Below, piece after piece: positions 6,914-24,453 of a stretch of DNA of 64,000 nucleotides. The stretch spans positions 1,341,949 to 1,405,948 of the forward strand of contig CP007051.1 of NCBI GenBank assembly GCA_000517565.1. Direction: 5' to 3'. The notes beneath the pieces are model-generated. The model had not been told where the DNA came from, did not search any database, and worked only from the letters and a program-made list of their open reading frames with translations. A program made the position numbers and the translations under genes. Source of the stretch: Desulfurella acetivorans A63 (GTDB lineage: Bacteria > Campylobacterota_A > Desulfurellia > Desulfurellales > Desulfurellaceae). Each line of letters starts with the position of its first letter. The stretch's first letter is position 1.

Positions 6914-7703
6914 TTAGATTTTAACAATATTTCCTAAAAATAAGAAAAAACCCAAAAATAAAATTATCCATCCCTGGTATACTCTTAAAGTTTTTAAATC
7001 TAAAGCAGATGAAATATAAGCACCTATCTGAGAACCGGATACCGCACCAATAAATAAAAAAATAGCGTACAACAACCAAACAGACGAATAAGCGTTTGTA
7101 TTTGTTAAATGTACAATAAACCCAATCAAAGAAGTAACTGTCATTATCATAATCAAAGTGGAAAAAGCTTTTCTTGGAGAAATTTCTTCCACAGCAACCA
7201 AATATGTTCCCATTATGCCACCTATCCCTACACCAAAAAATCCTGACGCAAAACCAGCTAAAAATGAAATGAAACGTAAAAGATTGTTATGTTTAATGAT
7301 GTTTGTAGTGCTTTGACCATTAAATTTTAGTAAATTTTTTTTAGCACTCACCAAAGAAAAAATACCTATTATTATTACCCATAATGGAAATATGATTGCA
7401 AATTGTTGAGTTTTTATAAATTTATTAACAATTGAACCTATAATAATACCAGGCAAAATAAAACTAATAATAACTACAAATAATTTATAATCAATTGTTT
7501 TTTGTTTTATAAAAGCATATGTGCCCCCAATTGAACTTACTACAATTGTAAACAAGCTTAAACCACTTGCTATAATTGAGCTTAAATGTAAATAATAAAT
7601 AAAAAGGCACCAATATGATTCCACCACCAATACCTATTATATTGCCCAATATAGAAACCACTATTGACACTATTAAAACTGCCAAACAATTTAAAATTAT
7701 CAT
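6914..7703 (-). pseudogene. TauE/SafE-family permease, frameshifted
   Basis: Remnant or mis-sequenced gene for a membrane permease of the TauE/SafE family, often annotated as sulfite or sulfonate exporters. The ATG at 7703 follows a TAGGAGA site, and the first 38 residues read GIGIGGGIILVPF-type TauE sequence. The frame is then lost; the rest of the protein (SGLSLFTIVVSSIGG, the second repeat GFASGFFGVGIGGIMGTY, and the C-terminus) continues in another frame. The shift falls between about 7590 and 7605, near a run of five T on the coding strand. Repaired length would be about 263 residues, the family norm, so apart from one single-base indel nothing is missing. Confidence 0.8.
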
Positions 7704-8056
7704 CTTATTTTCTCCTAAAATTACATAAAATTTTTGCAATTTTAAATATTTCAATTTTTAAAAACAAAATCTCAAACTTCAATAGTATTCTAAAATTAAA
7801 AAATGCTACTATTTTTAAAAGAATATGCCTTCCAACTTAAAAGTAACTATTTTTTTGCCTAATAGCTAACTTAACCAATATAACAATGTTTTGTCTTTGT
7901 CAATAAAAATAGAAACAGAAAAGTTAGCCAACAATATCTTTTTAATAAAAGATTTATAAAATATAATTAAACAATCGACAGCGATAAAAAAATTTTATTT
8001 GTTATGCTTTTATAACCGAAAATTAGCATTCAATATCCTCAATATAAGAAAATACA

Positions 8057-8088
8057 TACAAGGATTAATCACCCGATTAATCCTTGTA
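8057..8088. repeat. perfect 14-bp inverted repeat (hairpin)
   Basis: TACAAGGATTAATC, loop ACCC, GATTAATCCTTGTA. It lies inside the gene-free region with T-rich sequence on its right side (8096-8117), so it could terminate a plus-strand transcript, but no gene precedes it on that strand. Confidence 0.75.
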
Positions 8089-8361
8089 CATAACATTTTT
8101 ATTACATGATTTTTTTACTTGACAAATTAAAAAGATTATTGTATTAGTGAAATTAGCGGTTTGACAGTAAGCAATATTGGATTTAGATTTGTCAAAAAGT
8201 CTGTCAATAACCAAGTTCTTTTAAAAGAAAATAGGCGCTATCCCCTACAAATTTGAATGCAACAAAAATGTTTTTAAAACAAAAGAATCGTTATGTCTAA
8301 TATAAAAGTATCAAATTTAAGAATGCTGTTATCATAACCTTTATAAAAGGTGACTGTTGCA

Positions 8362-8511
8362 TTCTTTCCCGTTTTGAAGGGAATTACGGGCATCTTGCCG
8401 CAAGCTAGGTGTTAGCTTTGTTGGCAATTTGGGAGTTTGTTGTTCTTTCCTGTTTTGAAGACAATTACGGGCGTCTTATTGTAAGCTAGGTATTGGCTTT
8501 GCTGGCAATCT
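8362..8511. repeat. two tandem degenerate copies of a ~69-base hairpin element
   Basis: Copy 1 is 8362-8430 and copy 2 is 8443-8511 (period 81 bases); about 57 of 69 positions agree. Both keep a 5' pairing (CCCG/CGGG in copy 1, CCTG/CGGG with a G-U pair in copy 2) and a 3' stem around AAGCTA...TAGCTT (copy 1) or AAGCTA...TGGCTT (copy 2, again G-U compatible). The G+C content is visibly higher than in the flanks. A T run follows copy 2. It does not resemble a CRISPR or tRNA. Confidence 0.7.
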
Positions 8512-8624
8512 AATATTTTTTTATAAGCTTTGAATAAAATTTGTTATGTTTTCGTTATTGCAAAAGCGTTAACTTTTGAAGAATCTGATAACTAAATCTC
8601 CTGAAAAATAAACTATAAAAAAAC

Positions 8625-8653
8625 TTGACAAATTTAGTAAAAAAAATTAAACT
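8625..8653 (+). promoter_or_regulatory. possible promoter of the ODP gene
   Basis: TTGACA (8625-8630), 17-base spacer, TAAACT (8648-8653). The -10 match is partial. A GGGG ribosome site lies just before the ATG at 8693. Confidence 0.4.
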
Positions 8654-8692
8654 AAAATAGTTATTAAAATTAATGAAATACAGGGGATTTGT

Positions 8693-9466
8693 ATGGGTAA
8701 TAATACATTATTATTTTCAAATGGCATACATCAAAACATATTACTTGAGGATTTTGGTAGAGGACAGATGGTGCAAGCTAATGTTCATTTAATTGTTGAT
8801 AACAAAAAAAGTATTATATTGGATCCAGGAGGTCATAAAGTATTTAAACATGTTCTAACGGAAATTGGCGCAATAAGTGGTATTGGTAACATTGAATATA
8901 TTTTTTTGTCCCATCAGGATCCTGATATTGTGTCTGCAATCAACGGCTGGCTAATGACATTACCAAAAACAAAAGCATTAATTTCAAATTTATGGATGAG
9001 GTTTTTGCCTCATATTGGCGTTGATTCACTATTTGTAAACAAATTAATTGGGATTGACGATAAAGGCGCTAAAATAAAACTGGCTGAGAATTGTGAGCTC
9101 TACATATTACCCGCTCATTTTTTACATTCGCCAGGAAATTTTCAAATATACGATCCAATATCAAAAATTCTATATAGCGGCGACCTTGGTGCATCTTTGG
9201 GTCAGGATTATATATATGTGGATAATTTTGAAAATCATACTCAATATATGATTGGTTTTCACAAAAGATATATGTCAAGCAAAATAGCAATTCAAAAATG
9301 GATTAATATGGCAAAACAATTAGATATAGATCTCATTGCTCCCCAGCACGGTGCTTTTATAAAAGGTAAAGAAAATATAGAAAAGTTTTACGCATGGCTT
9401 GAAAATCTTGAACTCGACATAGACAATATGCACTATGAAATACCGCAGGATTTTTTAAATGTTTAG
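8693..9466 (+). CDS. metallo-beta-lactamase-fold di-iron protein (ODP-like)
   Basis: Protein of 257 residues, all of it a flavodiiron-type metallo-beta-lactamase domain without the flavodoxin domain. Metal ligands can be followed: HQDPD (His74, Asp76, Asp78), HSPGNF (His145), SGDLGA (Asp164) and PQHGAF near the C-terminus. The HQDPDI version, rather than the HxExD of flavodiiron reductases, matches the oxygen-binding di-iron proteins (ODP) described as oxygen sensors in chemotaxis. No chemotaxis gene is adjacent; the nearby genes are an ABC transporter and a diguanylate cyclase. The substrate or partner is therefore unknown, and oxygen sensing or reactive nitrogen handling are the best guesses. 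It overlaps the end of fetB, convergently, by 12 bases. Confidence 0.8.
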   Translation: MGNNTLLFSNGIHQNILLEDFGRGQMVQANVHLIVDNKKSIILDPGGHKVFKHVLTEIGAISGIGNIEYIFLSHQDPDIVSAINGWLMTLPKTKALISNLWMRFLPHIGVDSLFVNKLIGIDDKGAKIKLAENCELYILPAHFLHSPGNFQIYDPISKILYSGDLGASLGQDYIYVDNFENHTQYMIGFHKRYMSSKIAIQKWINMAKQLDIDLIAPQHGAFIKGKENIEKFYAWLENLELDIDNMHYEIPQDFLNV

Positions 9467-10233
9467 TTGAGTAAAAGAGTTAAAAAATTTCTTTTGCTCA
9501 AAAGAAAGTAATATATATACCGAAAGACAAATTGCTGTATTAATGGCTATAAGTATTATCATCTGGTATTTTACAGCTTCTATTGGGTTTACACCAGAAA
9601 GTATTTGACCTGTCATCATACCAGGAAGACTAACAATACCCATAGCACTAACGCTTGCAAGTTGTGGCATAAGGCTTGAGCGAAAAGCTCTTTGTTTAAA
9701 TTCGATGGTAGCTTCTCTGGCTGTTGCACCAAGTGAAAGTAATTCTTCTATATATTGTTTGTTTTGGTGTATTTCACTAAAAAAACGCTCTATTGCAATA
9801 GTTGTAGAGTTCATTGAGTTTCCAACAATCATGCCTGCCAATGGGATAAAATACCTCGCTTCGAACGGATTTTTAAGTCCAATACTAACAAAAGACATAA
9901 AAAGTGTAACAACAAACCCTGCAATAAAAATAGCGCCAAATATAATTATATTTGCATGTGAAATTTTACTTTTGTTCTTTCTTTGACAATATTTGCTGCA
10001 AATAAAACCATTATTGCATAATAGATTAAAATGACGAATGCGTTATTTATCTGGAATATAAATTTTAGAATATATCCAATTAGTAAAAGTTGTACGCTCA
10101 TTCTGACAAATGAATATATAATATCTTTTGTTAGCTTAAGGTTTTCTGTATAATTAACAAAAAAAGCTACAAAAAGCATGAAGTAAGATATAATAAGCTG
10201 CACTAATGAAATAGTTTCAACTTGCGATTGCAT
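9455..10233 (-). pseudogene. fetB: FetB-like ABC transporter permease, frameshifted
   Basis: Permease of the FetB/YbbM (UPF0014) family, partner of the ATPase just upstream, implicated in iron export in E. coli. The start at 10233 follows AAGGAT and overlaps the ATPase gene by 17 bases. The N-terminal half (VETISLVQLIISYFML ... RMSVQLLLIGYILKFIF) is in one frame and the C-terminal half (FIPLAGMIVGNSMNS, LSLGATAREA, GIVSLPGMMTGQIL) in another. The frame changes between about 9957 and 9978, where A4 runs occur on the coding strand. One indel restores a protein of about 258 residues, the normal size. It may be a true pseudogene or a sequencing error. Confidence 0.82.
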
Positions 10234-10855
10234 AACGATCCTTAATTTCAATTTTTTGTGTACAAAATTCTTTTATAGATTCTGTGTGAAAAGAACTTAC
10301 TATAAGTTTTTTTTCGGATAGGGATTTTAATAATTGTAGTGTTTTTTGCTCCATTTTAGCATCAAGAGCGCTTGTGGGTTCATCCAGCAATAAACACTCG
10401 GGATCAAGCAATAAAGCTCTTATAATTGCAATGCGTAATTTTTCACCACCTGAAAGTTGATTGATGTTTTTTTCTGCAGCATCCTGTAATTCAAAATATT
10501 CAAGTAAATCATTTAGTTTTTTATCGTCAAAAACTTTATTTGCATTGAATTTAAAACTAAATGGCAATCTAATACAATCCATTACATTCATCTGACCAAG
10601 GATGGGCATTTGAGGTACATAAATACACTTTGACCTAAACTCAGGAATGTTAAATTCATAAATTGATACACCCTTATAAAAAATTTCACCGCTAGATGGT
10701 TTCTCTAAAGCACACATTATTCTTAAAATTGTTGATTTTCCACTACCCGATGCTCCTTTAAGCCATACCAATCCAGAGTATTCAAGCTTGAATGTTGTAT
10801 TTTCTATGATTTTTTTGCCATTTTTTTCCATACTTACATGTTTTAATTCAAACAT
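10217..10855 (-). CDS. fetA: FetA-like ABC transporter ATP-binding protein
   Basis: Cytoplasmic ATPase of 212 residues for the FetB-type permease that follows. Walker A GASGSGKST, Q-loop VPQMP, signature LSGGEKLRIAIIRALL, Walker B CLLLDEPTSALD and H-loop SSFHTE are all intact. The short form without extra C-terminal domain matches FetA/YbbL. The ATG follows a promoter by only 7 bases and has no ribosome site, so the transcript is probably leaderless. Because its permease gene is frameshifted, the transporter may be inactive in this strain. Confidence 0.88.
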   Translation of the reverse strand: MFELKHVSMEKNGKKIIENTTFKLEYSGLVWLKGASGSGKSTILRIMCALEKPSSGEIFYKGVSIYEFNIPEFRSKCIYVPQMPILGQMNVMDCIRLPFSFKFNANKVFDDKKLNDLLEYFELQDAAEKNINQLSGGEKLRIAIIRALLLDPECLLLDEPTSALDAKMEQKTLQLLKSLSEKKLIVSSFHTESIKEFCTQKIEIKDRYAIAS

Positions 10856-10862
10856 TTTTCAA

Positions 10863-10891
10863 ATTTTATCATTTTCTTATTGATTTATCAA
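10863..10891 (-). promoter_or_regulatory. promoter of fetA, apparently leaderless
   Basis: On the minus strand: TTGATA (10891-10886), 17-base spacer, TAAAAT (10868-10863), then 7 bases to the ATG. Transcription would begin at or next to the start codon. Confidence 0.55.
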
Positions 10892-10939
10892 AATAATTTT
10901 TATATACTTTTGCAATCAAATATAGATTTGAGGTGTACA

Positions 10940-11524
10940 ATGCAAAATGAGGTGGATAATTATGTGCAATTTTTAAGTCGTTTATGCAGCGAATTTGAAA
11001 AAAGACATGCTAATTTGAACCAATATTATGCAATGGTCGACAATCTTATAGATATGGCTTACAAAGACCACTTAACCAAACTTTATAATAGAAGATACTT
11101 TGAAGATTCCTTAAATAAAGAAATATGCAGGTTTGAGCGTTATGGGCATATATTTTCTCTTTGTATGTTGGATATAGATGGTTTTAAACAAATAAATGAC
11201 ACATATGGCCACCTAAAAGGAGACGAAGTATTAAAAAGATTTGCTACTTTCTTAACAAACAACTCACGCACAAGTGATATTATATGCAGGTGGGGTGGAG
11301 ATGAATTTGCTGTAATTTTGCCCAATACCTCATTTAATAAAATTGAAGCTTACATTAAAAAATTTGTTTATGCAATTAAAACTCAAACAGACAGTTTATT
11401 AATCCATGCAACAATCGGAGCAACATCAATTAGGTTAAACGATAATAAAAAATCTCTCATTGAAAGAGCAGACGAGGCTTTATACATTGCAAAAAAAGAA
11501 AAGAAAACATACTATGTAATATAG
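10940..11524 (+). CDS. GGDEF-domain diguanylate cyclase
   Basis: Soluble protein of 194 residues that would make cyclic di-GMP from two GTP. A short N-terminal helical segment (about 40 residues) is followed by a complete GGDEF domain: DHLTKLYNRRYFED, DIDGFKQINDTYGHLKGDEVL, and the active site RWGGDEFAVILP. RTSD five residues before GGDEF is the inhibitory I-site, so product feedback is expected. The start at 10940 follows GAGGTG; upstream in-frame starts lack a ribosome site. No sensor domain is recognisable. The 3' end overlaps the convergent membrane-protein gene by 13 bases. Confidence 0.92.
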   Translation: MQNEVDNYVQFLSRLCSEFEKRHANLNQYYAMVDNLIDMAYKDHLTKLYNRRYFEDSLNKEICRFERYGHIFSLCMLDIDGFKQINDTYGHLKGDEVLKRFATFLTNNSRTSDIICRWGGDEFAVILPNTSFNKIEAYIKKFVYAIKTQTDSLLIHATIGATSIRLNDNKKSLIERADEALYIAKKEKKTYYVI

Positions 11525-12171
11525 TTATCTGAAAAAATCTCATACATAGAACCAATTAGTACTGGAAACAAAATAAGCCAACCTATAATTGATATTGTTG
11601 CAATAAAAGCTAGCGGCAGGTATATTATAAACAAAAATACTAAAGGAAAAAAATTTTTTAAACAAACAACTATGCTCTTTCCAATAGCTTCAAGCACACT
11701 CATTTTTTTGATTGTAATAAAAGGCATAGCAAGCATAAGAACAAAGTTTATAACAATATCCACTAACATAATTATAAAAATGGGTATATAATTTATTGAA
11801 TTTATGTGTTTATAGTTGTTAACAAGATCTTTTATATTTACAAACTGAACCAAAAAATAAGATACTATAAAACTTGAAAGCAAAAAAATGATACTAAGTA
11901 ATATTAAATTATATAAATTATTTGTAAAACCATCAAACAGATTGTCAAATATAATCTTTTGAGAGTTTTTTATCTTGTCAAAACTCATAAACATTCCGGC
12001 TACTAAAATTAATTGAATTACATATAAAAATATTGATAAAAGCAATATTTTCATGAGATATGAGACTGTAATGGTAAGAAATATAAATGCTGTTTGCAAA
12101 ACAAAAGTTACGCCAGCTTTTTTAAAAAGCTCGAAACCTTGCGCAAGCCAATTAAATGCTTTCGAAAACAT
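11512..12171 (-). CDS. hypothetical integral membrane protein
   Basis: Protein of 219 residues with about six hydrophobic segments and a short amphipathic N-terminus (FNWLAQGFELFKKAG). The pattern of paired long hydrophobic helices with a polar central loop resembles the BPSS1780/YciC-like group of uncharacterised membrane proteins, but I do not recognise a specific family. No catalytic or binding motif is visible. The gene has a perfect TATAAT six bases before its ATG and no ribosome site, so it appears leaderless and independent of dsrN, in whose 3' end its promoter lies. Confidence 0.7.
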   Translation of the reverse strand: MFSKAFNWLAQGFELFKKAGVTFVLQTAFIFLTITVSYLMKILLLSIFLYVIQLILVAGMFMSFDKIKNSQKIIFDNLFDGFTNNLYNLILLSIIFLLSSFIVSYFLVQFVNIKDLVNNYKHINSINYIPIFIIMLVDIVINFVLMLAMPFITIKKMSVLEAIGKSIVVCLKNFFPLVFLFIIYLPLAFIATISIIGWLILFPVLIGSMYEIFSDNYIT

Positions 12172-12177
12172 GTTTTA

Positions 12178-12205
12178 ATTATACGATAATTAATTCAAGA
12201 ATCAA
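12178..12205 (-). promoter_or_regulatory. promoter of the membrane-protein gene, apparently leaderless
   Basis: Minus strand: TTGATT (12205-12200), 16-base spacer, TATAAT (12183-12178), 6 bases to the ATG at 12171. It overlaps the end of dsrN. Confidence 0.6.
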
Positions 12206-13558
12206 GTTTATTTTCTTTTATCCAATTATAAAAGAAATCGCTTTTCTCGTCAAAAATATGAGAAAATCCTGCCATCACATTATCTTTGAGAGCATAATCA
12301 CAAACTCCATTAATCCCATAACCTCTTATCACATCAAAAAAACATTCAATATCTTTAAATTCAGTAAAGAAACCATGGTGAAATTCATGCGCATATATTT
12401 TTTTATTTTCTATAAAACTATGCTTTTTTTTGGGGGATAGTATTGTATAGCCATGACCTTTTGGCTTATTTGAAAGTTGGGTTTCCAAATTAAATATACC
12501 ACACATTTTAGCCTTATTTTCATTGTACTCAATACTATTTGTTAAATACATCAAACCACCGCATTCGGCAAATATTGGTAAACCTTCTTTAGAAGCCTTT
12601 TTTATTTGATTTCTAAGATCAAAATTTTTTTGTAGCTGATCTAAAAATAACTCAGGAAAACCACCTCCAATATAAATTGCATCGGCTAATGGAATAGACT
12701 CATCTTTTATTGGAGAAAATTTTTTTATTTCTACACCCATGGATTGTAAGTTTTGTAAATTTTGTTTGTAGTAAAAATTAAATGCTTCGTCAAAAGCAAT
12801 AGCAATAACAACCTGTTTTTTTAGTTTTCTAATAGGCACATTATAATTCTCAACATGAAGTTTTGGAGCATTGTAAGCAATCTTAGTAATCTGTGTTACA
12901 TCGAGATAGTTTTCTAAATTAGATGTTATATTTTCTATTAATTCTTGTTTTTTTTCTTCTTGTAATACTGAGGTTAGGCCTAGATGCCTTTGGGTTATTG
13001 ATACGCTTTGGGCTGGTAGAGTACCTAAGATAGGTAAATCTGTATAATTTTTGATTGCTTCTATTAATTTTTTTTCTTGCCTTACAGATTGAATTTTGTT
13101 TAAAATAACACCAGATATAAAAACATCTTTATCAAAATCCACTATTCCTTTTAACAAAGCAACCAAACTTCTACCTAATTCACTTACATCTACTACTATT
13201 ACTACTGGCGTTTTTGTAATCTTAGCTAAACTGGCATTGCTCGTTTTGCCATCCAAATAAATATCATCAAACAAACCATGGTTTCCTTCAATTAAAAAAA
13301 GCTGCATTTACTTTGATCTATTTTGTTAACAAAATAACTATATATTTGATCTTTTAAAAAGAAAAAATCTAAATTAAAACAAGGATTGTTACTTGCAAGT
13401 TCAAGCCACATTGGATCTATATAGTCGGGCCCTTTTTTAAATGTTAAAAGTTTATATTTTCTGGATAAAATCTTCGATAATGCAATTGAAATGGTTGTTT
13501 TTCCAGAACTTTTTTTAAAAGCACTTATGTATATGCGAGGAGCACTAATTTCTTTCAT
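12195..13558 (-). pseudogene. dsrN: DsrN-like siroheme amidase (CbiA/CobB family), frameshifted
   Basis: ATP-dependent amidotransferase of the cobyrinate a,c-diamide synthase family. In dsr loci such a homologue, DsrN, amidates siroheme for sulfite reductase, and the position next to siroheme synthase supports that over cobalamin synthesis. The N-terminal P-loop region (FKKSSGKTTISIAL, FKKGPDYIDP) ends out of frame at a T7 run (13294-13300, written as A on the plus strand). An eighth T would restore SFF-LIEGNHGLFD, the family's EGxxGLFDG site. The rest, including the glutaminase ECGGLMYL with the nucleophile cysteine, is intact to 12195. Repaired length is about 454 residues. An internal ATG at 13307 could start the second fragment. 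Confidence 0.8.
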
Positions 13559-14096
13559 TTTTAAAAAAACCTTTTATTGTACTATCCATTGTTTTGGCAT
13601 CAACTTTTCTTAATGAACTTACGGTTTCGATTAATTTTTCTATATTATCCGGTAAACAAGATAAAATGTGTTTTTTTAAAGCTTTTGATACTGCCGGTGC
13701 TTTCGATGAAGTATTTATACCTATTACTAAGTCTTTTTTGTGTATAATAGAACCAAATATAAAACTGCAATATTTAGGACTATCCACAGTATTTACCAGT
13801 ATTTTTCTGTTTTTACAAATCATAGCAATCTTTTCCTGCAATGCTAAATCATTTATTGCAACAATAATTAAAAAAACATTATCTTTAATATCTGTTTCAT
13901 CAAATGCTTTAATTTTTAAATTAAGTTTGTTTAACTCAAAAAGATTCTCAATTTCTTTAATTGCATTTTTAGCAATAACAGTTATTTTGGGGCCAAAGGG
14001 CAGTAAAGTTTCAATCTTTCTATAAGCTACTTCTCCTGCCCCTATTACTATTATCTCTTTGTCTTTAAGGTCAACAAAAATAGGAAAATAAGCCAT
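13545..14096 (-). CDS. precorrin-2 dehydrogenase / sirohydrochlorin ferrochelatase (CysG N-domain, Met8-like)
   Basis: Bifunctional enzyme of 183 residues that oxidises precorrin-2 with NAD and inserts iron to give siroheme, the prosthetic group of DsrAB. The NAD-binding fingerprint VIGAGEVAYRKIETLLPFG and the NTVDSPKYCSFIFGSII segment, with the conserved aspartate, identify the family. It is the stand-alone form without a methyltransferase domain; that activity is encoded at 22255-23523. The start lies 4 bases after the upstream DsrE-like stop with no clear ribosome site, suggesting coupling, and the 3' end overlaps dsrN by 14 bases. Confidence 0.9.
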   Translation of the reverse strand: MAYFPIFVDLKDKEIIVIGAGEVAYRKIETLLPFGPKITVIAKNAIKEIENLFELNKLNLKIKAFDETDIKDNVFLIIVAINDLALQEKIAMICKNRKILVNTVDSPKYCSFIFGSIIHKKDLVIGINTSSKAPAVSKALKKHILSCLPDNIEKLIETVSSLRKVDAKTMDSTIKGFFKNERN

Positions 14097-14100
14097 AAAT

Positions 14101-14523
14101 TTACGTAAATATTATCTGTGCATCATCTGAAAATGTATAAAACTGTCCAACAGATATTATACCATCTACTTCCGGGCAAAAATCTTCTTCTTTTATACCC
14201 CATAAATCAACAGTAGCACGACATGCATAAATTTTTGCTCCTGAGTCATGTATCATTTCAACAAACTCTCTGATTGTTGGAAAATCAAATTTCTCCATTG
14301 CCTGTTTCATGGTTTCTATTGTGAGTTCCGGGTGTGTTTTGTTTATTAGCGGCAAATTATCCATTTTTGAATCTATTATAGCATCCAAGCCAAATGATGT
14401 AAAAAACAACATTACATCAATACCTTCCATCCTGGCACCATTTGCCATAATAAAACCAGGTAAAACTTCTTCAAAACCATTTCTTGATATAATTATAGAT
14501 ATCTTTTTTAACTTTCTTTCCAT
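14101..14523 (-). CDS. DsrE/DsrF-like sulfurtransferase family protein (DsrE2-like)
   Basis: Protein of 140 residues. The first part (ISIIISRNGFEEVLPGFIMANGA, then DVMLFFTSFGLDAI) and the C-terminal IYACRATVDLWGI are typical of DsrE2-like proteins of the DsrE superfamily. The cysteine of YACRAT is the candidate sulfur carrier. No membrane helices are seen. A GGAGGA site precedes the ATG. It lies in line with dsrK and the siroheme genes, so a role in passing sulfur to or from the dsr system is inferred. DsrE-type carriers are best known from sulfur oxidisers and tRNA thiolation, so the exact substrate is open. Confidence 0.85.
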   Translation of the reverse strand: MERKLKKISIIISRNGFEEVLPGFIMANGARMEGIDVMLFFTSFGLDAIIDSKMDNLPLINKTHPELTIETMKQAMEKFDFPTIREFVEMIHDSGAKIYACRATVDLWGIKEEDFCPEVDGIISVGQFYTFSDDAQIIFT

Positions 14524-14538
14524 TTTTCCTCCTACATT

Positions 14539-14889
14539 TTATGTTCTAACATAAGCATAACCTTCGGCTTGACGCTTAATGATTTCTAAAATACCGGCTT
14601 TAGTTATGCCAACCTCTTCAATTAAGTCTTCTTTGCGTAAATTCAAGTTATTTAAAGAATTATTGCACATTAAAAATACCACACCCATTTCATGCAATTT
14701 CTTTATATCAGTGTATATTTCCTGATCAAACATGTTTTTTACAAATAGCAAAGGACCTTTGTAGTTAGCCACAACCACTATATCGCATTGGCTTTTTGGG
14801 ATTTCTTTTAAAAGGTTATTAATGTTTCCTATTGCTATTTTTAAGGGTTCTATTGCATCAAGTTCAATATGAAACAAAACTTTGTACAT
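14539..14889 (-). CDS. DsrE superfamily protein, second copy
   Basis: Protein of 116 residues of the DsrE/DsrF-like fold: KVLFHIELDAIEPLKIAIGNINNLL, then DIVVVANYKGPLLFV, then GVVFLMCNNSLNNLNL, in which the cysteine occupies the position of the carrier cysteine in the family. It follows dsrK by 9 bases with GGAGT before its ATG and precedes the DsrE2-like gene. The pair might act together as a relay. Function is assigned only at superfamily level. Confidence 0.8.
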   Translation of the reverse strand: MYKVLFHIELDAIEPLKIAIGNINNLLKEIPKSQCDIVVVANYKGPLLFVKNMFDQEIYTDIKKLHEMGVVFLMCNNSLNNLNLRKEDLIEEVGITKAGILEIIKRQAEGYAYVRT

Positions 14890-14898
14890 AAATACTCC

Positions 14899-16369
14899 TT
14901 ACAGTACAATTGCAGCGCTTACCAGCTGATGTATACCGCCAACCCAGTCTCTTTCAAAACCATAAAGAGGAAACATTGCGTAAAACTGTGTTTTGCATAT
15001 TGCACAAATTGTAGCAAAAAAGTTTACATTATTTTTATCAACAACTTCCTTGAAAGCCTGCATCCTTGGCATTACACCATTTATGCGTGTTTGCATAATT
15101 TCGTCTGTTAAAAGTCCGGCGCCTGCACCGCAGCAGAATGTTTTTGCTTTTATTGCTCCTTCCTGCATATCTACAAAATTATTACATACAGATTTAATTA
15201 AATCCCTTGGTATGCTAAATTGGTCTCCTGGTTGGGTGCCCATACGAGATGCCCTTGCTACATTGCATGGATCGTGATAGGTTACTGTTTTATCGTCGTT
15301 TGCGCTTTTATCTATTTTAATTACACCATCTCTAATAAGGCCAAGTGTGAAATCGCATATATGGGATGGCTGCGGGTATTTTGGGTCCAGAAAATCAAAT
15401 GGTCCATTCATTGTATTTGAGTAATTATAAGCTGCTCTCCAGGCATGACCGCACTCGCCTATAATAACACGCTTTACTTTGAGCCTTTTTGCTTCTTCCC
15501 AGATACGTTTGTTTATCTCTTTGGTATTTGTGTAACTTCCTATAAACATACCAAAGTTTGCAGCCTCAGATGCATAAGATGATAATGTATAACTAATACC
15601 TGCTTTGTAAAATACCTTCGCATAACCAAACATTGACTCAATATGCGGTATGGCAAAAAAATCAGCAGACGGCGGCACAAGCAAAACTTCTGCGCCTTCT
15701 TCATCAATTGGTATTTTTATGTCTTTACCTGTTTCATCTTTTAAATCTTCTTCAAATTCTGCAATTGTATTTTTTAATGCGTTTGCATCTATGCCAATAT
15801 TGTTACCTGTTCTGTAAACTTGTGTTATTGTGTTTGTAGCATACTTTTCACCAACACCAATAGAGTTCATTATTTCTCTTGCAGCCATTGTAATTTCTGC
15901 TGTATCTAATACCATAAGGGCAAAAATAAGAGCATCTTCTGCATTCCGAACACTGGTAAAAATAAGACATCCATTGTTTTAATACATGTTCGCTAAATGG
16001 CTCTCCTTTTGAGCTAAACGGTGTAAAATAGTACCTGTAAACCTTGCGCATAAGCTCTGCTCTGCCAACAGGTGTATTGTTGATATCGCCACTACCTAAG
16101 AAAAACTGGCACTTATCCGTGCAAGCACCGCATCTTACACATATATCCATGTATGTCTTTAGTGCCTTATTGTTGTCTAAAAGTTCTTTAAACACACCAA
16201 CTGCCTTATCTTGCCAGCCTTCTTGAAGTTTCTTTGGAAATCCCAAAGTTTCCATATCTTCTTCAAGGGCTAAAAAAGTAAATTCACTAGCCTGATTGCC
16301 TTTTCTTAAAAGTTTTGGGGTCTGAATTTTGCCCGTAAGTTTATGAATATGGTAGTGTTCTTTTGACAT
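14899..16369 (-). pseudogene. dsrK: DsrK, iron-sulfur subunit of the DsrMK menaquinol oxidoreductase, frameshifted
   Basis: Cytoplasmic HdrD-like subunit that would pass electrons from DsrM to DsrC. The N-terminal fragment carries two [4Fe-4S] motifs (CVRCGACTDKC and CSECRRCSYFCPYGI). The C-terminal fragment carries HEVG-type and CCG sequences, including TFCCGAGAGLLTDE and ATICAICKTQF, as in subunits that bind the catalytic iron-sulfur cofactor. The frame breaks at about 15905-15910, just after CPYGI. Removing one base from the coding string GGTATTAGATACA would give GI-DTAEITMAAREI and a continuous protein of about 489 residues. The break is not in a long homopolymer. The gene starts 11 bases before the dsrM stop side, in operon order dsrM-dsrK. 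Confidence 0.88.
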
Positions 16370-16380
16370 TTTGCCTCTCC

Positions 16381-17151
16381 TTAAATTGTTAACCTTGTTG
16401 TTCTTTCATCTGTATATCTATTTTCCCTTACATCATCATTCATAGCAAGTGTTGGAGAAAAGAATATACCTACAAAGTGCATAATTTTACTAAATGGTAT
16501 GTAGGCAAGCAGTATTAACACTAAAGTATAGTGTAGCAGGAAAAATGGATTGTGTGGTATATCAACTGGCTGGAAAATAAATAGCTTATTAAAAAATGCG
16601 TCCAATTGCACCACACTTTTTTCAAGCGCAGCTGGACTTTGGAATACTATCTCAGACAATCCTGCTATTGTAATTAGCATCAACAATACAAGTATAAAAT
16701 AATCTGATAGTACACTTATAAATTTAACCCTTTCTACAAATATTCGCCTTAAAAACAAATAAACCAAACTTATAAGCATAAGTGTACCAAACACAAGACC
16801 TATGGGTACAAGTAAATTATACCATGCTGGAGGATTGCCGTGATAAAAATCATACACATAATGCCTTAAAACATGCTGAATAAGCACTATAGCCAAACTT
16901 ACGTGAAATACATACCCTCCAACCCAGGTACTTTTGTTTGACCTATAAAGGCTTTTAAAGAAAAAAACCTCCCCAAGTACCCTAAAAAACGCTCCTGTTT
17001 TGGTTTTAGGTGCTGGGGTAAGAGGTATTTTTACGGGCATAGGCGTTTTAGCGTAAACTATTATTTTCCAAACCACACCAATAATCAAAATTGCAAAAGC
17101 AGCATATGTCAAAATAACGTACATAAAACTCACAAAATCTAAATTATCCAT
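16381..17151 (-). CDS. dsrM: DsrM, cytochrome b subunit of the DsrMK complex
   Basis: Membrane subunit of 256 residues in the NarI/DsrM family that oxidises menaquinol and feeds electrons to DsrK. About five to six membrane helices are visible. Histidines placed as heme b ligands occur in HVSLAIVLIQHVLRH and in HNPFFLLHYTLVLILLAY ... MHFVG. The start at 17151 follows GGAGGGG; the upstream in-frame codon is not needed. It is intact, unlike its partner DsrK. No dsrJ, dsrO or dsrP is present, so this is the minimal DsrMK form. Confidence 0.9.
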   Translation of the reverse strand: MDNLDFVSFMYVILTYAAFAILIIGVVWKIIVYAKTPMPVKIPLTPAPKTKTGAFFRVLGEVFFFKSLYRSNKSTWVGGYVFHVSLAIVLIQHVLRHYVYDFYHGNPPAWYNLLVPIGLVFGTLMLISLVYLFLRRIFVERVKFISVLSDYFILVLLMLITIAGLSEIVFQSPAALEKSVVQLDAFFNKLFIFQPVDIPHNPFFLLHYTLVLILLAYIPFSKIMHFVGIFFSPTLAMNDDVRENRYTDERTTRLTI

Positions 17152-17173
17152 ATATCCCCTCCAAAAGCAAAAC

Positions 17174-17202
17174 AAAAGGCGAAAAAAAGATTTTCGCCTT
17201 TT
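17174..17202 (-). terminator. intrinsic terminator or attenuator between dsrC and dsrM
   Basis: Stem AAAAGGCGAAAA / TTTTCGCCTTTT with a 5-base loop, followed on the minus strand by a T-rich tract (GTTTTGCTTTT). It lies 9 bases after dsrC and before the dsrM ribosome site, so it should reduce read-through from dsrABDLC into dsrMK. Confidence 0.75.
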
Positions 17203-17211
17203 TATATGGTT

Positions 17212-17553
17212 TTATACACAGCCTGTTGGTTTTGATAAGCCTGCATACCTAACAAGCTGCCTTGCTGGGCCTTCTGGAAATAAAACATATATGTGCTTGT
17301 TGCCTTCCCTGACATTTGGTAAATTGCAAATTTCTGCAACCTGTTTTGCTACAGCTCTAATGGAAGGGGCAACCTGGTATTCTTTGTAGTACTCTCTTAC
17401 ATAATCAATCAATTTCCAATGTTCTTCTTTTAGTTCTATGCCATCCTGTTTTGCCATAAACTCTGCAAGTTCTTTGCTCCAATCTTCCTGATGCTGGATA
17501 TAGCCTTCATCATCTATCTCTATTTTTTTTCCGTTAAAATCTAAAAAAGCCAT
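17212..17553 (-). CDS. dsrC: DsrC/TusE-family sulfur-carrier protein lacking CysB
   Basis: Protein of 113 residues with the DsrC fold: EIDDEGYIQHQEDWSKELAE, HWKLIDYVREYYKE, APSIRAVAK. It ends in KPTGCV, so the penultimate cysteine (CysA, Cys112) is present. In DsrC of sulfite reducers a second cysteine (CysB) sits 11 positions earlier; here that position is Val101 (codon GTT at 17253-17251), in QLVRYAGLSKPTGCV. The cysteine pattern is therefore that of TusE, though the gene lies in a dsr operon between dsrL and dsrM. An AAAGGAGG site precedes the ATG. Without CysB the intramolecular DsrC trisulfide described for sulfite reducers could not form. Confidence 0.92.
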   Translation of the reverse strand: MAFLDFNGKKIEIDDEGYIQHQEDWSKELAEFMAKQDGIELKEEHWKLIDYVREYYKEYQVAPSIRAVAKQVAEICNLPNVREGNKHIYVLFPEGPARQLVRYAGLSKPTGCV

Positions 17554-17566
17554 AAAACCTCCTTTT

Positions 17567-18971
17567 TTACATTTTTTCTATATAGCCACATGGACAATTT
17601 TCAAAACACTTCATACACCCATCACATGTTTCAAGATGAAATTCATAATGCTGACCCTTTGGTAATTTCTTTACAGCTCCATGAGAACAATATGTAAAGC
17701 AATTACCGCAGTCAAAACAAAGTCCGCAACTCATGCAACGCTTGGTTTCTTCAATAAACTCTTCCATTGACAAAGCATTCATGAAAGGTTCAAAATCTTT
17801 AACACGCTCATTTGGTTCTCTAAACGTTCTTTCATGGCGCGGTTTTGTTTCGTATAAATCTAAATGCATCTTGTCTGATTCGATAACTTTTCTTGTATCC
17901 TGTTCTATAATTTTTTTTACCTGTTATATGTTCAATTATATTTGCTGCTGCGGCAAAACCATGCCCAATTGCCGTAGTTACATACATCAACCTCGGACCC
18001 ACTACATCGCCACCTGCAAATACTTCTTCGTAAGCATCGAGGGCTTCTCTTGAAGCTTTTTTATCAAAAGTCTCTTTGTCTGGCACAGTTCTTCTATAGG
18101 CGAATGTGACGTTTGCACCCCATCTCTTGCTTATCATAGCAGCATCTGCTGCCGTATCTGCGCCAACTACCACAACATCTTTACCTATATCCAATTTCTC
18201 ACCATTTGCAAAACGGTATAAAAACTCAAGTCCGCTATAAACACCTTTTATGCTATCAATATTTTCTAATCTAGGTTTTTCTGGTTTGTATGCACCTACT
18301 GCAAGGTAAATACAATCAAATTCTTTCTTTAATTCTTAAATATCTAGATCTTTGCCTAATGCCTTGGAGCATTTAATTTCTACTCCAAGATCAACAATCC
18401 TTTGTATTTCTGCATTTACAATTTCTTTTGGTAATCTGAAATTAGGTATACCATAGTATAAAAAACCACCGGGTTTTTCTTCTTTTTCAAATATGGTTAC
18501 CTTTACACCTCTTCTTGCAAGGTGGTATGCACAGGATAAGCCAGATGGCCCAGAGCCTATAATTGCTACTTTTGCATCGTATGTCTCATCAAGTTTTTTT
18601 AAAGGTAACTTATGTTTTAGTGCAAAATCGCCAATAAACATTTCGCAGGCATTGATATTTACGGCACTATCCTTGTCTTTTCTATTGCATCTTGATTCGC
18701 AAGGATGGGGGCAAACCCTACCTGTAGTTGAAGGTAGAGGGTTTGTTTGAGCAATAATATAGAAAGCGCCCTCCAGCGCTTCTTCATAGGTTCTGCCGTA
18801 ATCTTGTGCCTGAGCAATATACTGGAGAAATTCCCTAACCTGTTCTCCATTTGGACATGTATCAGAACAAGGAGGGCGCTTTTCTACGTATATTGGCCTA
18901 TCAGAAGAATATTCTGTGCCAGTTGGTTTACTGAAACTTTCAATACTTTTTTTAACCTTTACTACAGCCAT
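17567..18971 (-). pseudogene. dsrL: DsrL-like NAD(P)H-dependent iron-sulfur flavoprotein, with stop codon and frameshift
   Basis: Homologue of the glutamate synthase small subunit, arranged as in DsrL. An N-terminal iron-sulfur region (CSDTCPNGEQVREFLQY, CPHPCESRC) is followed by an FAD fingerprint (IIGSGPSGLSCAYHLARRG), then a nucleotide-binding VVVGADTAADAAM, and a C-terminal ferredoxin pair (CMSCGLCFDCGNCFTYC and CDGCMKCFENCPCG). It would supply electrons from a pyridine nucleotide to DsrAB or DsrC. Two lesions are seen. An in-frame TAA at 18338-18336 splits GKDLDI from ELKKEFDCIYLAVGA in the same frame. A frameshift occurs at an A8 run (T8 at 17911-17918), where one A fewer would join ITGKK to IIEQDTRK. 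Repaired length is about 467 residues. Confidence 0.85.
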
Positions 18972-18980
18972 AAAAGCTCC

Positions 18981-19223
18981 TTATTGTGTTTGATCTTCAG
19001 GCAAAGTCAGAAAGCTCCCTCCTGCGTAACCATAAATCAATTCACCGTTATCTGTAAGTTCTTTTATAGCGGCTTTTGCATCTTTTCTTGTTATATTCTC
19101 GCTTTGAAAGTTTTGCTCAACTTCTTTTTCTAAATCCTGAGGTTTAAATCTTTTTTTGCCGTGGTATTCCTTTACTAGATTAACCACAAATTCCTTTATC
19201 TTTTGTTTTTGCTCATCAGTCAT
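18981..19223 (-). CDS. dsrD: DsrD, small winged-helix protein of the dsr operon
   Basis: Protein of 80 residues with the winged-helix pattern of DsrD: KIKEFVVNLVKEYHGKKRF, then KDAKAAIKELTDNGELIYGYAGGSFL. DsrD accompanies dsrAB in organisms that use the enzyme reductively, and has been reported to activate DsrAB. Its presence therefore argues that this locus descends from a reductive pathway. The start at 19223 follows AAGGAGG; an in-frame codon further upstream lacks a site. It lies 47 bases after dsrB. Confidence 0.85.
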   Translation of the reverse strand: MTDEQKQKIKEFVVNLVKEYHGKKRFKPQDLEKEVEQNFQSENITRKDAKAAIKELTDNGELIYGYAGGSFLTLPEDQTQ

Positions 19224-19270
19224 GGTAGCCTCCTTACAATCGTGCATAGTTCGAGTAATTCATCGTTGCT

Positions 19271-20323
19271 TCACCTAATCCTGAAATCATCAATATGGTA
19301 TTTTGTAAACTCAAAGCCCGTTATTTTAAAGAATTTCGGCCATCCAATCCTATCAATCCATTCTGCTACACGTTCTCCTTTTCTTGCACCTTCTTTGTAT
19401 GCTTCAAGTATTGTCCTTACGGCTTCGATAACTTCTGGCCATCTTGGCGGATTATTTGGAAGCCATGGCACTACCAGTTTTGAAAAAGTTGGCTTGGTTC
19501 TTGCATTTGAAACTTTGCCCCCAATAAATATTGCCACTCCATCATTTAGAGGATCAGCTATAGGAAGCGCAGGGCAAACTGTATAGCAGTTACCGCAATA
19601 AACGCATCTATCTTCATCGATTTCCACAGAAGGCTTACCATCTATAGTTTTTGGCCTTACTGCATCTACCGGACACGCCGCTATTGTACTTGGTATCTCG
19701 CACAAATCCTTTACCCTATCTGCCATAACTCTTGGTGGTCTTCTGTGCATTCCCACAATTGCAATATCAGAAGCACCCACAGAACCACACATATTAAGAC
19801 AACACGCAAATGCCATTCTTACCTTTGCGGGTAATTTGTCTGAAACAAAATAATCATAAAACTCATCCATTAAGGCTTTAACTACACCTGATGCATAACT
19901 TGCAGATGTATGGCAATGTAGCCAACCTTGAGTATGTACAATATTGCCAAGCGAATGATCGATCCCACCAACTGGAAAACCCAATGCCTGTACTTCTTTA
20001 ATTAAGGGTTCAATATTTTCTTCTTTATCAAGAAGAAATTCTAAGTTATTTCTCGTTGTAAATTTTAAGTAACCGCCGCAATACTTATCTGCAAGATCAG
20101 ATATTTCCCTTACAAAATCACTGCTAACTATCCTTGTTGAGCCTACCCTTACAGTATAGAGCTTCTCACCAGACTCTGAGACATGAACCATAACACCTGG
20201 TTTTAAAATCTCATGATACAACCACTTACCATAATTTCTTTTAATTATAGGCGGTAAAAAATCTTCATAGTGTGGTGGACCTATATCTGTAATTCTTACT
20301 GTTCCTTTATCTACATCTGGCAT
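19271..20323 (-). CDS. dsrB: dissimilatory sulfite reductase subunit beta
   Basis: Catalytic subunit of 350 residues, full length. DsrB features include the N-terminal [12 protein letters not shown], the [10 protein letters not shown] segment, the siroheme/iron-sulfur cysteine motif [22 protein letters not shown], and an inserted ferredoxin domain (CPVDAV ... [16 protein letters not shown]). With DsrA it reduces sulfite, and the product sulfur is taken up by DsrC. The ATG follows GGAGG, which overlaps the dsrA stop codon. The reading frame is clean, in contrast to several neighbours. Confidence 0.95.
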
Positions 20324-20326
20324 AGT

Positions 20327-21433
20327 TTAACCCTCCTTTCCTTCTTCTTCATCATCTGGCACTAAATATTCTTCAAATTTGATAAATGGATTTGCCCTTG
20401 GATACTCTACCATTTCTGGTAGTGGATCCAAACCTATAGCTTCAAGGAAATTCCCTACGCCTACCCTTTGGATTAATTCTCCTACACGTTCTCTGTTTGT
20501 ACCGTATTCATCCCAGAAATCCCATATCTTTTGAATCAAGTCTTTTAAGAAAGCGTAATCTTCTTCTTTGTCTTTATTTACATCGTAAAAAGGTATAAGT
20601 ATAAACCCAAGCCTTGGATCCTGGACCATAGGTACTTTAGCACCTATTCTAATTTGCGCACCTTTTTCTAATCCAGGTCTTAGAGCTTTTGGCATAGAGT
20701 TAATGCAATGCATGCATTTTACGCAGTTTGAATCATCGATAGTTAATTTGCCATCAGTATAATCCATGCAATGAGTAGGACATTTATCAACTACATACTT
20801 TTTAATATCAAATTTCTTTGCGTATTCTGCAACTTCCTTTTGGTCAATTCTGATATTGGCTTTCCATACACCCACAATAGATAAATCAGACCTGGCACCA
20901 GATGCTATGCAATCGTTTGGGCAACCTGCACATTTGATCTTAAACTTATAGTTAAATGTTGGCCTGTGCATCTCGTTTTGGAATTCTCTTGTTAAGTTAT
21001 CTGTGATGTGGAGTGTATCGTAGGTTGCCCACTCGCAACGAGCTGGTCCCACGCAACAGCTTGGTGTTCTGAGTGCTGAACCACTGCCACCAAGATCAAA
21101 ACCTAAGTGAGTACATTTTTGAAATAGCTCTTCTGCTTCTTCCTGTTTAAAACCAAGTATCTGGATATCACCTGTTGAACCATGAAAGTTAAATAAACCA
21201 CCTGCGTGTTCATCACAAATATCCGCCAGCTTCCTCAATACATCCGATGTGTAAAAAAAACCTTCAATCTGATTTAATCTAGCCGTATGATATTCTTTAA
21301 CACCTGGATATTCATCTGGTTCATCAGAAAACCTACCAACTATACCTCCACCATAACCTCTAACACCTGCCATACCCCCATGTTTCCAGTGAGGTATTCT
21401 GTCTTGATAGGATTTTTCCAGTTGACCTATCAA
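20327..21433 (-). CDS. dsrA: dissimilatory sulfite reductase subunit alpha, N-terminus missing
   Basis: Alpha subunit; 368 residues are visible. Signatures: HWKHGGMAGVRGYGGGIVGR, NFHGSTGDIQ, LRTPSCCVGPARCEW, KIKCAGCPNDCIASGARSD, and a ferredoxin domain with CPTHCMD and CVKCMHCINSMPKAL. The first usable codon is a TTG at 21433 within what is normally residue 45-55 of DsrA. Four codons further upstream in frame is a TAG, and no other frame in the A/T-rich upstream sequence encodes the missing PLLDELEKGPWPSF-type N-terminus. No ribosome site precedes the TTG. Either the protein starts unusually late or the 5' end of the gene has been lost. Confidence 0.88.
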   Translation of the reverse strand: MIGQLEKSYQDRIPHWKHGGMAGVRGYGGGIVGRFSDEPDEYPGVKEYHTARLNQIEGFFYTSDVLRKLADICDEHAGGLFNFHGSTGDIQILGFKQEEAEELFQKCTHLGFDLGGSGSALRTPSCCVGPARCEWATYDTLHITDNLTREFQNEMHRPTFNYKFKIKCAGCPNDCIASGARSDLSIVGVWKANIRIDQKEVAEYAKKFDIKKYVVDKCPTHCMDYTDGKLTIDDSNCVKCMHCINSMPKALRPGLEKGAQIRIGAKVPMVQDPRLGFILIPFYDVNKDKEEDYAFLKDLIQKIWDFWDEYGTNRERVGELIQRVGVGNFLEAIGLDPLPEMVEYPRANPFIKFEEYLVPDDEEEGKEG

Positions 21434-21538
21434 ATTTAGATACTAATAAAAGTCAATGAAAAAAATTAAAATAAAATTATTTTTATTTTTTTATATTTTT
21501 ATTCCTTTAAAACAATCATAATTAAAACATTACTTAAT

Positions 21539-21646: not shown

Positions 21647-22270
21647 TTAAAGCAAATTTAATAAATTTGCAATAATTTGCTTGAAATCTTTACTGCTAAA
21701 TTGATAGAATTGTTTTTTGTGATTAAAAAAATTGTTTAAATCTTTATCATTTGCAAGAACAATTTTATTTTTTAAACTACTTATCCCATATATGTCTTTA
21801 AAATAGAAAAATTGTTCTGTATTATTAAAATAAATTATATCAAAAGGAGGTAACTCATGCTGTTTATAAACACAACCTTGTAACTTTATTTTAATTATGT
21901 TATTTAATTTAGATAATTTTTTAATAAATCCATTGTTGGAGTTATAATTGTATACATAACAAATTTCAAGTTGTCTAATTGAATCAATTTTCTTAATACT
22001 TTGTAGACAATATTTCTTAAAAAAATCAAAAACTTCACTTGAATTGGTTATGAGTGTTGGTAAAAGGCGTATATCCATCTCTTTATCTTGAAAAAATTTA
22101 ATTAAAGCCTCAGCAATTTTTAAATCACAAACTGCTATAGCATTGCAATTAGATATTTTTTTTAGAAGCTCATTGTTGATATTGTAATTAACACTAAAAT
22201 CATAATCAATTGGCTTTGCTCCTATATCTTTAAAATTAAAGTACAACTTATAATCTATGGGCGCGGGCAA
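21647..22270 (-). CDS. hemD: uroporphyrinogen-III synthase-like protein
   Basis: Protein of 207 residues placed directly after the SUMT domain protein, a position usually held by hemD, often as a CobA-HemD fusion. HemD proteins are weakly conserved. Here the late segments FDIIYFNNTEQFFYFKDIYG (family: the aDaivftS..av..f motif) and the spacing of two Rossmann-like halves fit the assignment. The start is probably the TTG at 22270, overlapping the upstream stop by 16 bases with AAAGGG before it. The two frames lie so close that a former fusion is easy to imagine. The assignment rests more on context than on motifs. Confidence 0.65.
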   Translation of the reverse strand: MPAPIDYKLYFNFKDIGAKPIDYDFSVNYNINNELLKKISNCNAIAVCDLKIAEALIKFFQDKEMDIRLLPTLITNSSEVFDFFKKYCLQSIKKIDSIRQLEICYVYNYNSNNGFIKKLSKLNNIIKIKLQGCVYKQHELPPFDIIYFNNTEQFFYFKDIYGISSLKNKIVLANDKDLNNFFNHKKQFYQFSSKDFKQIIANLLNLL

Positions 22271-23523
22271 TAAAACCCTTTTATCCTGAAGGATGCCATT
22301 TTTTTATAATAAAAGCTGGATATATCTCCTACAATAAATATACCTGGAGGATTATCGTAAAATAATCGACTTTTTAACTCGTTAACTTTACAAGTTATAT
22401 CAGACAAAGTTCCTCTTATTTCAAATTCTTTATCTGTGCCTATGCTAAATATAAGAGCAACTTTAGTTTGAGGCGAATAACCTTCGTTTATTAAAGAACT
22501 ACTTATTTTATCAATAACTTTTACTCCCATAAAAAAAACCAATGGCAAAGTAGTTAATTCATTTTTGCTAAACTCAGCAGCAGCCCCTTTATGTTTAATG
22601 GCAGATAAAACGCAAAAACCTCTATTTACTTCCCTTCGTGTTAAAATAATACCGCTTCTTATAGACAAAGCATTTATAGTACTTATACCAGGCACAATAT
22701 TAAAATTAATTTTTAAATCTTCCAATACTTTTATTTCCTCAGCAAGTCTGCCAAAAATTGAAGGATCTCCTCCCTTTAGTCTGCCTACTCTAAAACCCAT
22801 TCGAGCATATGTACTTATTAAATCAGTGATTTTTGATTGATTTAATTTGTGATGCTCGCATCTTTTTCCCACATCTACTAAAATTGCATTATCTGGAAGA
22901 AAATCTAATAAATCATGGTCCATCAAGTTATCAAATAAACATACTTCTAAATGTTTTATAGTATCAATAGCTTCTTGTGTTGCGTATTTTTTATCACTTA
23001 CACCTGCTCCAATAAAATATACGCTTTTTATAAAAAACTGACGCAATAATGTAAAACTTTCATCATTTTTTCTAAATTCAACGCAGGCAAAACCTTCAAA
23101 CAAAGGTTTTTGCATATCGGCTATGTTAATTTTTTCAGTATAAAATTCATATTTACTATCATATGCAACATAACCTGGAAGCATAACTGTACTATAATCA
23201 GCTATTAATTGATCAATGCTTTTAAACTCCCTAATAAATGAAATGGTTGCATTATTAAATCTTTTTTTACAATAAAGCCATTGGCTATTAGTCACAACAC
23301 CAATTTTTTCTATATTGGTTTGTTTTGAAATTAAAAGATCAAATTCATTATTTTCGTATAAATTTACAAAAAACCAGTCTAAAAAATCTAACTTAAAATC
23401 CAAACAATTTTTTGCATCAATTACTGCACAATCAATAATTTTTTCATGCAAGAAAGAAGCTATTTGTTCCATAGAATTACAATCTTGAAAATCAAAACTG
23501 AATTCTAAATACTTACCAAACAA
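22255..23523 (-). CDS. cobA: fusion of a degenerate HemC-like domain and uroporphyrinogen-III C-methyltransferase
   Basis: Protein of 422 residues. Residues about 167-415 are a full SUMT domain: VYFIGAGVSDKKYATQEA, VDVGKRCEHHKLNQ, GRLKGGDPSIFGR and VPGIST. It methylates uroporphyrinogen III to precorrin-2 for siroheme. Residues 1-160 look like the middle of porphobilinogen deaminase (IGVVTNSQWLY for GTSSLRR, then LFEGFACVEFRKND for GQGALAIECR). However, the catalytic HSLKD is replaced by IDAKN (residues 35-39) and the substrate-binding arginines are missing, so this part should be inactive as HemC. The start is uncertain: TTG at 23523, with the frame open about 19 codons further. Confidence 0.8.
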   Translation of the reverse strand: MFGKYLEFSFDFQDCNSMEQIASFLHEKIIDCAVIDAKNCLDFKLDFLDWFFVNLYENNEFDLLISKQTNIEKIGVVTNSQWLYCKKRFNNATISFIREFKSIDQLIADYSTVMLPGYVAYDSKYEFYTEKINIADMQKPLFEGFACVEFRKNDESFTLLRQFFIKSVYFIGAGVSDKKYATQEAIDTIKHLEVCLFDNLMDHDLLDFLPDNAILVDVGKRCEHHKLNQSKITDLISTYARMGFRVGRLKGGDPSIFGRLAEEIKVLEDLKINFNIVPGISTINALSIRSGIILTRREVNRGFCVLSAIKHKGAAAEFSKNELTTLPLVFFMGVKVIDKISSSLINEGYSPQTKVALIFSIGTDKEFEIRGTLSDITCKVNELKSRLFYDNPPGIFIVGDISSFYYKKMASFRIKGFYCPRP

Positions 23524-23761: not shown

Positions 23762-23848
23762 TTAAAAGGGTCCCTGCATTCCAGCTGGCAAAGACCATAA
23801 AATTGCAGGAATAGCAAATGTATACAAAGCTGCAAATGTTACTACCAT
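23762..23848 (-). CDS. 28-residue membrane micro-protein
   Basis: Its ATG (23848-23846) overlaps the stop of the 132-residue membrane gene, so translation is probably coupled. The predicted peptide is mostly one hydrophobic helix (VVTFAALYTFAIPAILWSL), followed by PAGMQGPF. It has no ribosome site of its own, which makes it less certain than the neighbouring micro-protein. Function unknown. Confidence 0.5.
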   Translation of the reverse strand: MVVTFAALYTFAIPAILWSLPAGMQGPF

Positions 23849-24240: not shown

Positions 24241-24246
24241 AAATCC

Positions 24247-24414
24247 TTAAGACAATAAAGCAAATGCACCTAAATAAATAATTGGAGCAATCCATTTACC
24301 CACTACTGACTGAGCTTGATCAGCAGCATAGGCATGACAAAAAAAGGTCAAAAAAAATAAAAAACACATGACAGATGTTAGAAAACTTTTAGACAATAAA
24401 CCTTTTTGACTCAT
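24247..24414 (-). CDS. 55-residue exported or membrane small protein
   Basis: First gene of the micro-protein unit. The ATG at 24414 follows a strong AAGGAGGTGA site. Residues 1-31 look like a signal peptide (core VMCFLFFLTFFCHAYA), after which ADQAQSVVGKWIAPIIYLGAFALLS gives a short periplasmic part and a second hydrophobic segment. No family is recognised. The next gene begins 7 bases after its stop. The promoter region upstream shares an 18-bp element with the divergent rrf2 promoter. Confidence 0.65.
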   Translation of the reverse strand: MSQKGLLSKSFLTSVMCFLFFLTFFCHAYAADQAQSVVGKWIAPIIYLGAFALLS

Positions 24415-24453
24415 ATCGAGTCACCTCCTTTAGTTAAAGATTTTTATTATTTT

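Follow-up and report, generated by a model that had tools for sequence, protein, structure and literature searches.

Clustered frame breaks around the dsr operon of Desulfurella acetivorans A63 point to recent decay of the Dsr pathway

A stretch of 64,000 nucleotides from Desulfurella acetivorans A63 (the window; C1:1341949-1405948 of a 1,819,992-base genome in two contigs) carries a dsr operon in which several reading frames are interrupted, and the question that it raises is whether the sulfite-reduction pathway has died in this lineage or its sequence has been misread. An initial annotation, made from these letters alone, had suggested relaxed selection on sulfite reduction and on a TauE-type exporter. 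Comparison with two congeners indicates, with high probability, that the region from a TauE/SafE-family permease gene to an AmiS/UreI-like membrane protein gene is a recently inactivated and still-decaying island around a reductive-type dsr operon.

The comparison covers three species-level Desulfurella genomes, that of A63 being sampled in stretches. The nearer congener, the draft genome G002, shares ~93-97% DNA identity with A63 over the window and ~96% at dsr; the other, G001, is 78-84% identical at dsr and served as the outgroup in counts of changes between A63 and G002. In the alignment of the three, a lesion was called where it is present in A63 and absent from both relatives. The TauE gene, which is not at the corresponding locus in G001, was judged against G002 alone, and for the upstream part of dsrA and the end of a cobA-type gene G001 is the better reference, the G002 contigs ending or rearranging there. 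The three-way region comprises the window and its surroundings, 97 kb in all (~75 genes), and a wider comparison with G001 uses 170 reciprocal-best genes. Lesions were read from assembled sequence, the background gene count is a sample of the A63 genome, and the count of broken genes outside the affected block is a minimum, a few short open reading frames showing small unexplained length differences.

Thirteen lesions fall in nine of the 19 block genes, against one broken gene of ~153 elsewhere (Fisher p ~3e-9; sampled genes), and the lesions are absent from the orthologs in G001 and G002, which are intact where assembled. The A63-specific lesions span 7.6 to 24.3 kb of the window, and the block is to be bounded at ~6.9-24.4 kb, wider than first described (Table 1). 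All the breaks initially noticed in TauE, fetB, dsrN, dsrK and dsrL (two in the latter) are present, as is the loss of the DsrA N-terminus. The list was real but incomplete, a 279-bp deletion in dsrL and an inserted base in dsrB having been overlooked. Similarly, the statement that the other 49 kb holds no interrupted gene fails for the cobA-type and AmiS/UreI-like genes adjoining the cluster but is otherwise correct: none of the A63 genes of the 97-kb three-way region (~75 genes) is broken outside the block. Among the 170 reciprocal-best genes, the single further A63 gene with several breaks is narG.

The lesions include nonsense codons as well as large deletions with 3-6 bp of microhomology. 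Three are found in dsrL: a nonsense codon (TAA at 18336-18338, GAA in both relatives), an in-frame deletion of 279 bp at 18025/18026 with the direct repeat AAG at its junction, and an additional A at 17918. The deletion at dsrA (~187 bp) removed upstream DNA, the ribosome-binding site, the ATG and ~37 codons, and its junction has 5-6 bp of microhomology (ATTTGA). Such junctions with short direct repeats resemble those of replication-slippage deletions, a mechanism that may have operated here. Some substitutions are also at conserved sites: DsrB R87K and D143Y affect residues invariant in 81 of 81 homologs, and DsrA G310D affects a position that is glycine in 79 of 81.

Changes unique to A63 or to G002, counted gene by gene, provide a second line of evidence. 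In the broken genes, the ratio of amino-acid to silent changes is 47:83 (0.57) on the A63 branch and 24:100 (0.24) on that of G002 (p=0.003). The difference persists when dsrA is left out, both for the broken genes (33:62 against 19:84, p=0.01) and for the dsr genes (19:43 against 9:69, p=0.006). The two branches are symmetric in 62 genes outside the block (292:815, or 0.36, for A63 and 302:787, or 0.38, for G002; p=0.50) and in the intact genes within it (15:32 and 15:26, p=0.66); the nonsynonymous share is raised on the affected branch only. Intact congener orthologs, large deletions and this amino-acid excess support the proposal of relaxed selection on sulfite reduction, although its scope would extend beyond dsr and TauE to the cobA-type and AmiS/UreI-like genes and to narG. 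The A63 ratio of 0.57 lies far under the neutral expectation, so constraint must have held for most of the branch. In a rough mixture estimate (constrained ratio 0.24, assumed neutral ratio ~2.7), ~13% of the branch is neutral, and constraint may thus have been lost in approximately the last ~13% of the A63 branch since the split from G002.

Most probably, then, the ancestor common to A63, G001 and G002 had a complete dsr operon (dsrABDL-CM-K-N, with siroheme-related genes), and selection on the pathway ceased in the A63 lineage. Nonsense mutations, small indels and deletions at microhomologies would then have built up in dsrA, dsrB, dsrK, dsrL and dsrN, as well as in the methyltransferase gene of the siroheme pathway and in transporter genes nearby. 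Dsr decay is a known kind of event, ordinary gene decay, and the loss of respiratory operons via pseudogenes is a general pattern of bacterial genome decay. As in that pattern, frameshifts, stops and deletions are clustered in one pathway and the orthologs of sister species are intact; A63 differs in being at an early stage, with the operon still partly open.

Table 1. Genes of the affected block (window positions) and their condition in A63. Lengths in amino acids (aa) refer to the open frames of the relatives named.
Feature	Position	Strand	Condition in A63 and comparison
TauE/SafE-family permease gene (PF01925)	6914..7754	-	-2 frameshift near 7597; T5, against T7 in G002 (280-aa open frame)
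ODP-family metallo-beta-lactamase fold protein	8693..9466	+	Intact; full length in G002
fetB (UPF0014 permease)	9455..10251	-	-1 at 9961; intact in G002/G001 (265/263 aa)
fetA-type ABC ATPase	10217..10855	-	Intact
dsrN	12195..13558	-	-1 at 13301 (T8 to T7); 454 aa in G001 and G002
Met8/CysG-type precorrin-2 dehydrogenase	13545..14096	-	Intact (homolog: PF13241)
Two DsrE-family genes	14101..14889	-	Both intact (PF13686, PF02635)
dsrK	14899..16369	-	+1 at 15909 (GGTATAG to GGTATTAG); 489/491 aa in relatives
dsrM	16381..17175	-	Frame intact; +1 immediately upstream of ATG
dsrC	17212..17553	-	Intact; lacks second C-terminal cysteine, as do intact relatives
dsrL-2 pseudogene	17567..18971	-	TAA, 279-bp deletion, +1; 560 aa in G001 and G002
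dsrD	18981..19247	-	Intact; homologs adjoin dsrAB in many loci
dsrB	19271..20323	-	+1 at 19281 swaps last ~14 residues
dsrA remnant	20327..21433	-	5' end gone at 21435/21436; 406 aa in both relatives
cobA/SUMT-type gene (uroporphyrinogen-III methyltransferase domain)	21647..23523	-	+4 at 23546, -1 at 22299; single 652-aa frame in G001
AmiS/UreI-like membrane protein pseudogene	23842..24416	-	In-frame stop at 24247-24249, -1 at 23847

Several observations weigh against decay. The genes dsrC, dsrM, dsrD, both dsrE, Met8/CysG and fetA keep open frames and a low dN/dS, and the proteins of some open block genes may retain residual use; TauE, fetB and the AmiS-like gene are without a proven link to sulfite. 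Moreover, 1-base indels, as read from the assembly, make up seven of the 13 lesions. Three of these indels and the TauE -2 lie in or beside A/T homopolymers of 7-8 bases (TauE T7, dsrN T8, dsrL A7, cobA-type A7), as might be expected if errors in a badly covered stretch had produced the broken frames. We consider such errors very improbable as the explanation, since base-calling errors are unlike deletions of 279, ~187 and 178 bp (the last in narG), nonsense codons and indels outside homopolymers. In addition, the three-way region has no broken gene in its other ~80 kb, the amino-acid excess is confined to the broken genes, and narG, with three nonsense codons and its own deletion, is ~100 kb away. 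It had been suggested that a close relative with all frames intact would mark the breaks as assembly errors. Both congeners do have intact frames, yet assembly error is not indicated, given the size of the deletions and a substitution signal that does not depend on indels.

Real decay could also have taken place outside nature, in a strain kept for decades in laboratory culture on elemental sulfur; the restriction of the cluster to this lineage would fit. This seems very improbable: 13 lesions and ~15 excess amino-acid changes within a single island far exceed what decades without a mutator would be expected to yield, and narG is the only other broken gene found among ~153.

The history of the block is complicated by recombination. 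Silent divergence between A63 and G002 is a mosaic between neighbouring genes across the window (dS 0 to 0.8), a pattern that strongly signals homologous recombination in the Desulfurella species complex, and per-gene dS thus cannot date single events. In dsrA, the first ~54 retained codons (window 21250-21435, codons ~38-91) diverge from G002 far more than the remainder, and the differences mostly match residues common in the DsrA of other lineages, which suggests a recombined allele. The initial annotation had counted these N-terminal changes as decay; for most of them that reading was rejected in favour of recombination. The mosaic dS and the foreign-looking dsrA codons, together with the different context of the G002 dsr block beside a tyrosine recombinase gene, could also mean that the block was dead before A63 took it up from another lineage. 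That would be improbable: gene order flanking the block agrees with G001, and divergence between the block and G002 is genome-typical, so a donor would belong to the species complex, and the event to explain would be decay all the same.

The contexts of the block differ in further respects. In A63 and G001, a tRNA-Ala/amt region flanks it on one side and the cobA-type gene on the other. In G002 (C89:88146-103397), the tyrosine-recombinase gene is found beyond dsrA, and at the other end is a short repeat that recurs elsewhere in both genomes. It is possible that the dsr block is a mobile island. At 8.0-8.7 kb, where a CRISPR or some other array of repeats was considered and rejected, one imperfect 80-bp tandem pair is all that is present. 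A hot region of breakage in G002 as well was likewise rejected, since the flagged G002 genes that were looked at, amt and the 25137 homolog, coincide with runs of N. G001 has two split genes (C18:731962-733360 and C18:164998-166297), the A63 orthologs of which are intact (466 and 433 aa).

What has decayed is recognizable as a reductive-type system with DsrL-2: in the window as in G001 and G002, dsrD and dsrL come after dsrAB, and dsrC and dsrMK are close by. A functional pathway would have, at the least, open frames for DsrA, DsrB, DsrC, DsrM and DsrK; here dsrA is startless, dsrK and dsrL are broken, and the C-terminus of DsrB is altered. DsrL is an electron donor, and DsrN acts in siroheme amidation. 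With no DsrA start, no DsrL and no DsrK, sulfite-reductase function would be lost, and the Dsr pathway of A63 is very likely dead, presumably through a recent loss of selection. It could be, alternatively, that only DsrAB-dependent reduction was lost, and that DsrC, DsrM, DsrD and DsrE are retained for another role in sulfur handling. The absence of own-branch amino-acid changes in dsrC, the single one in dsrM, and the presence of a second DsrC-family gene elsewhere in the genome are compatible with that idea. We regard it as unlikely, given that short conserved genes remain open by chance for a time and that the partner gene dsrK is broken.

The C-terminus of DsrC was initially listed among the lesions, a claim that comparison does not bear out. 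In G014 and each of the three Desulfurella genomes, the operon DsrC ends in GPARQLVRYAGLSKPTGCV; it lacks one of the two C-terminal-arm cysteines of canonical DsrC in the intact relatives as in A63. A hydrophobic residue also replaces the second cysteine in L028-L032 and L034, whose DsrK is 65-68% identical to that of G001, and the cysteine is retained at the remaining loci where the end of DsrC can be read. DsrC was therefore rejected as a decayed gene, and its missing cysteine is a trait of the genus and clade rather than a lesion. This operon DsrC type, in Desulfurella and a related clade of metagenome-assembled genomes, co-occurs with one DsrK type. The second C-terminal cysteine is needed for the canonical DsrC trisulfide, and D. 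amilsii respires thiosulfate with the cysteine-less operon type.

The cobA-type gene is broken on either side of its methyltransferase domain, which remains open within a 422-aa frame. The idea that uroporphyrinogen-III synthase was lost with this gene (21.6-23.5 kb) was rejected: the methyltransferase is its sole Pfam domain, and a separate intact hemD-family gene is present at C1:10459. No second siroheme sulfite/nitrite reductase (NIR_SIR) domain is found elsewhere in the A63 genome, and siroheme may thus have no other client.

Outside the block, the narG pseudogene (C1:1250052-1253530) is intact in G001 and G002, and its narH-, narJ-, narI- and narK-like neighbours, named by eye, are open. 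Two respiratory systems would thus have decayed in one lineage, which would be consistent with a narrowing to elemental sulfur. A PhsA/PsrA-like molybdoenzyme frame is open at C1:1220760 (784 aa; family assigned by eye only).

D. acetivorans does not respire thiosulfate and D. amilsii does (PMC5317093), and a dead Dsr pathway agrees with that report. The same account lists dsrA and dsrB in A63, calls DsrC and DsrMK not encoded, and attributes the thiosulfate phenotype to their absence (PMC5317093). Both descriptions have dsrA and dsrB, no functional DsrC/DsrMK set and no thiosulfate respiration. However, the DNA contains open dsrC and dsrM and a frameshifted dsrK, and the DsrA listed is a truncated remnant. 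DsrL-2, the type found in D. amilsii and characterised from it, is the NADPH-dependent partner of reductive DsrAB (PMC7596348). The D. amilsii TR1 operon, read here via G001 as its inferred match, has the same order and families (dsrABDL C M K E E, Met8, dsrN, fetAB), the same DsrL-2 type and a DsrC without the second cysteine. Its frames are all open and its Dsr is linked to thiosulfate respiration, whereas at least five dsr genes are broken in A63.

Decay of the operon would account in concrete genetic terms for the reported inability to respire thiosulfate, and would correct the published reading in which DsrAB counts as present and DsrC/DsrMK as never encoded. This strain would be miscounted in surveys that take the presence of dsrAB to indicate sulfite reduction. 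It is conceivable, although we hold this view only tentatively, that the type strain of the Desulfurella type species is a natural Dsr-null, nitrate-reductase-null specialist on elemental sulfur. Sulfur disproportionation is stated for the genus, and the existing evidence on the part played by Dsr in it is proteomic; a natural Dsr knock-out beside intact sisters would permit a test of that role. If the strain is indeed Dsr-null and disproportionates sulfur, it would demonstrate on genetic grounds that disproportionation in this group needs no sulfite reductase.

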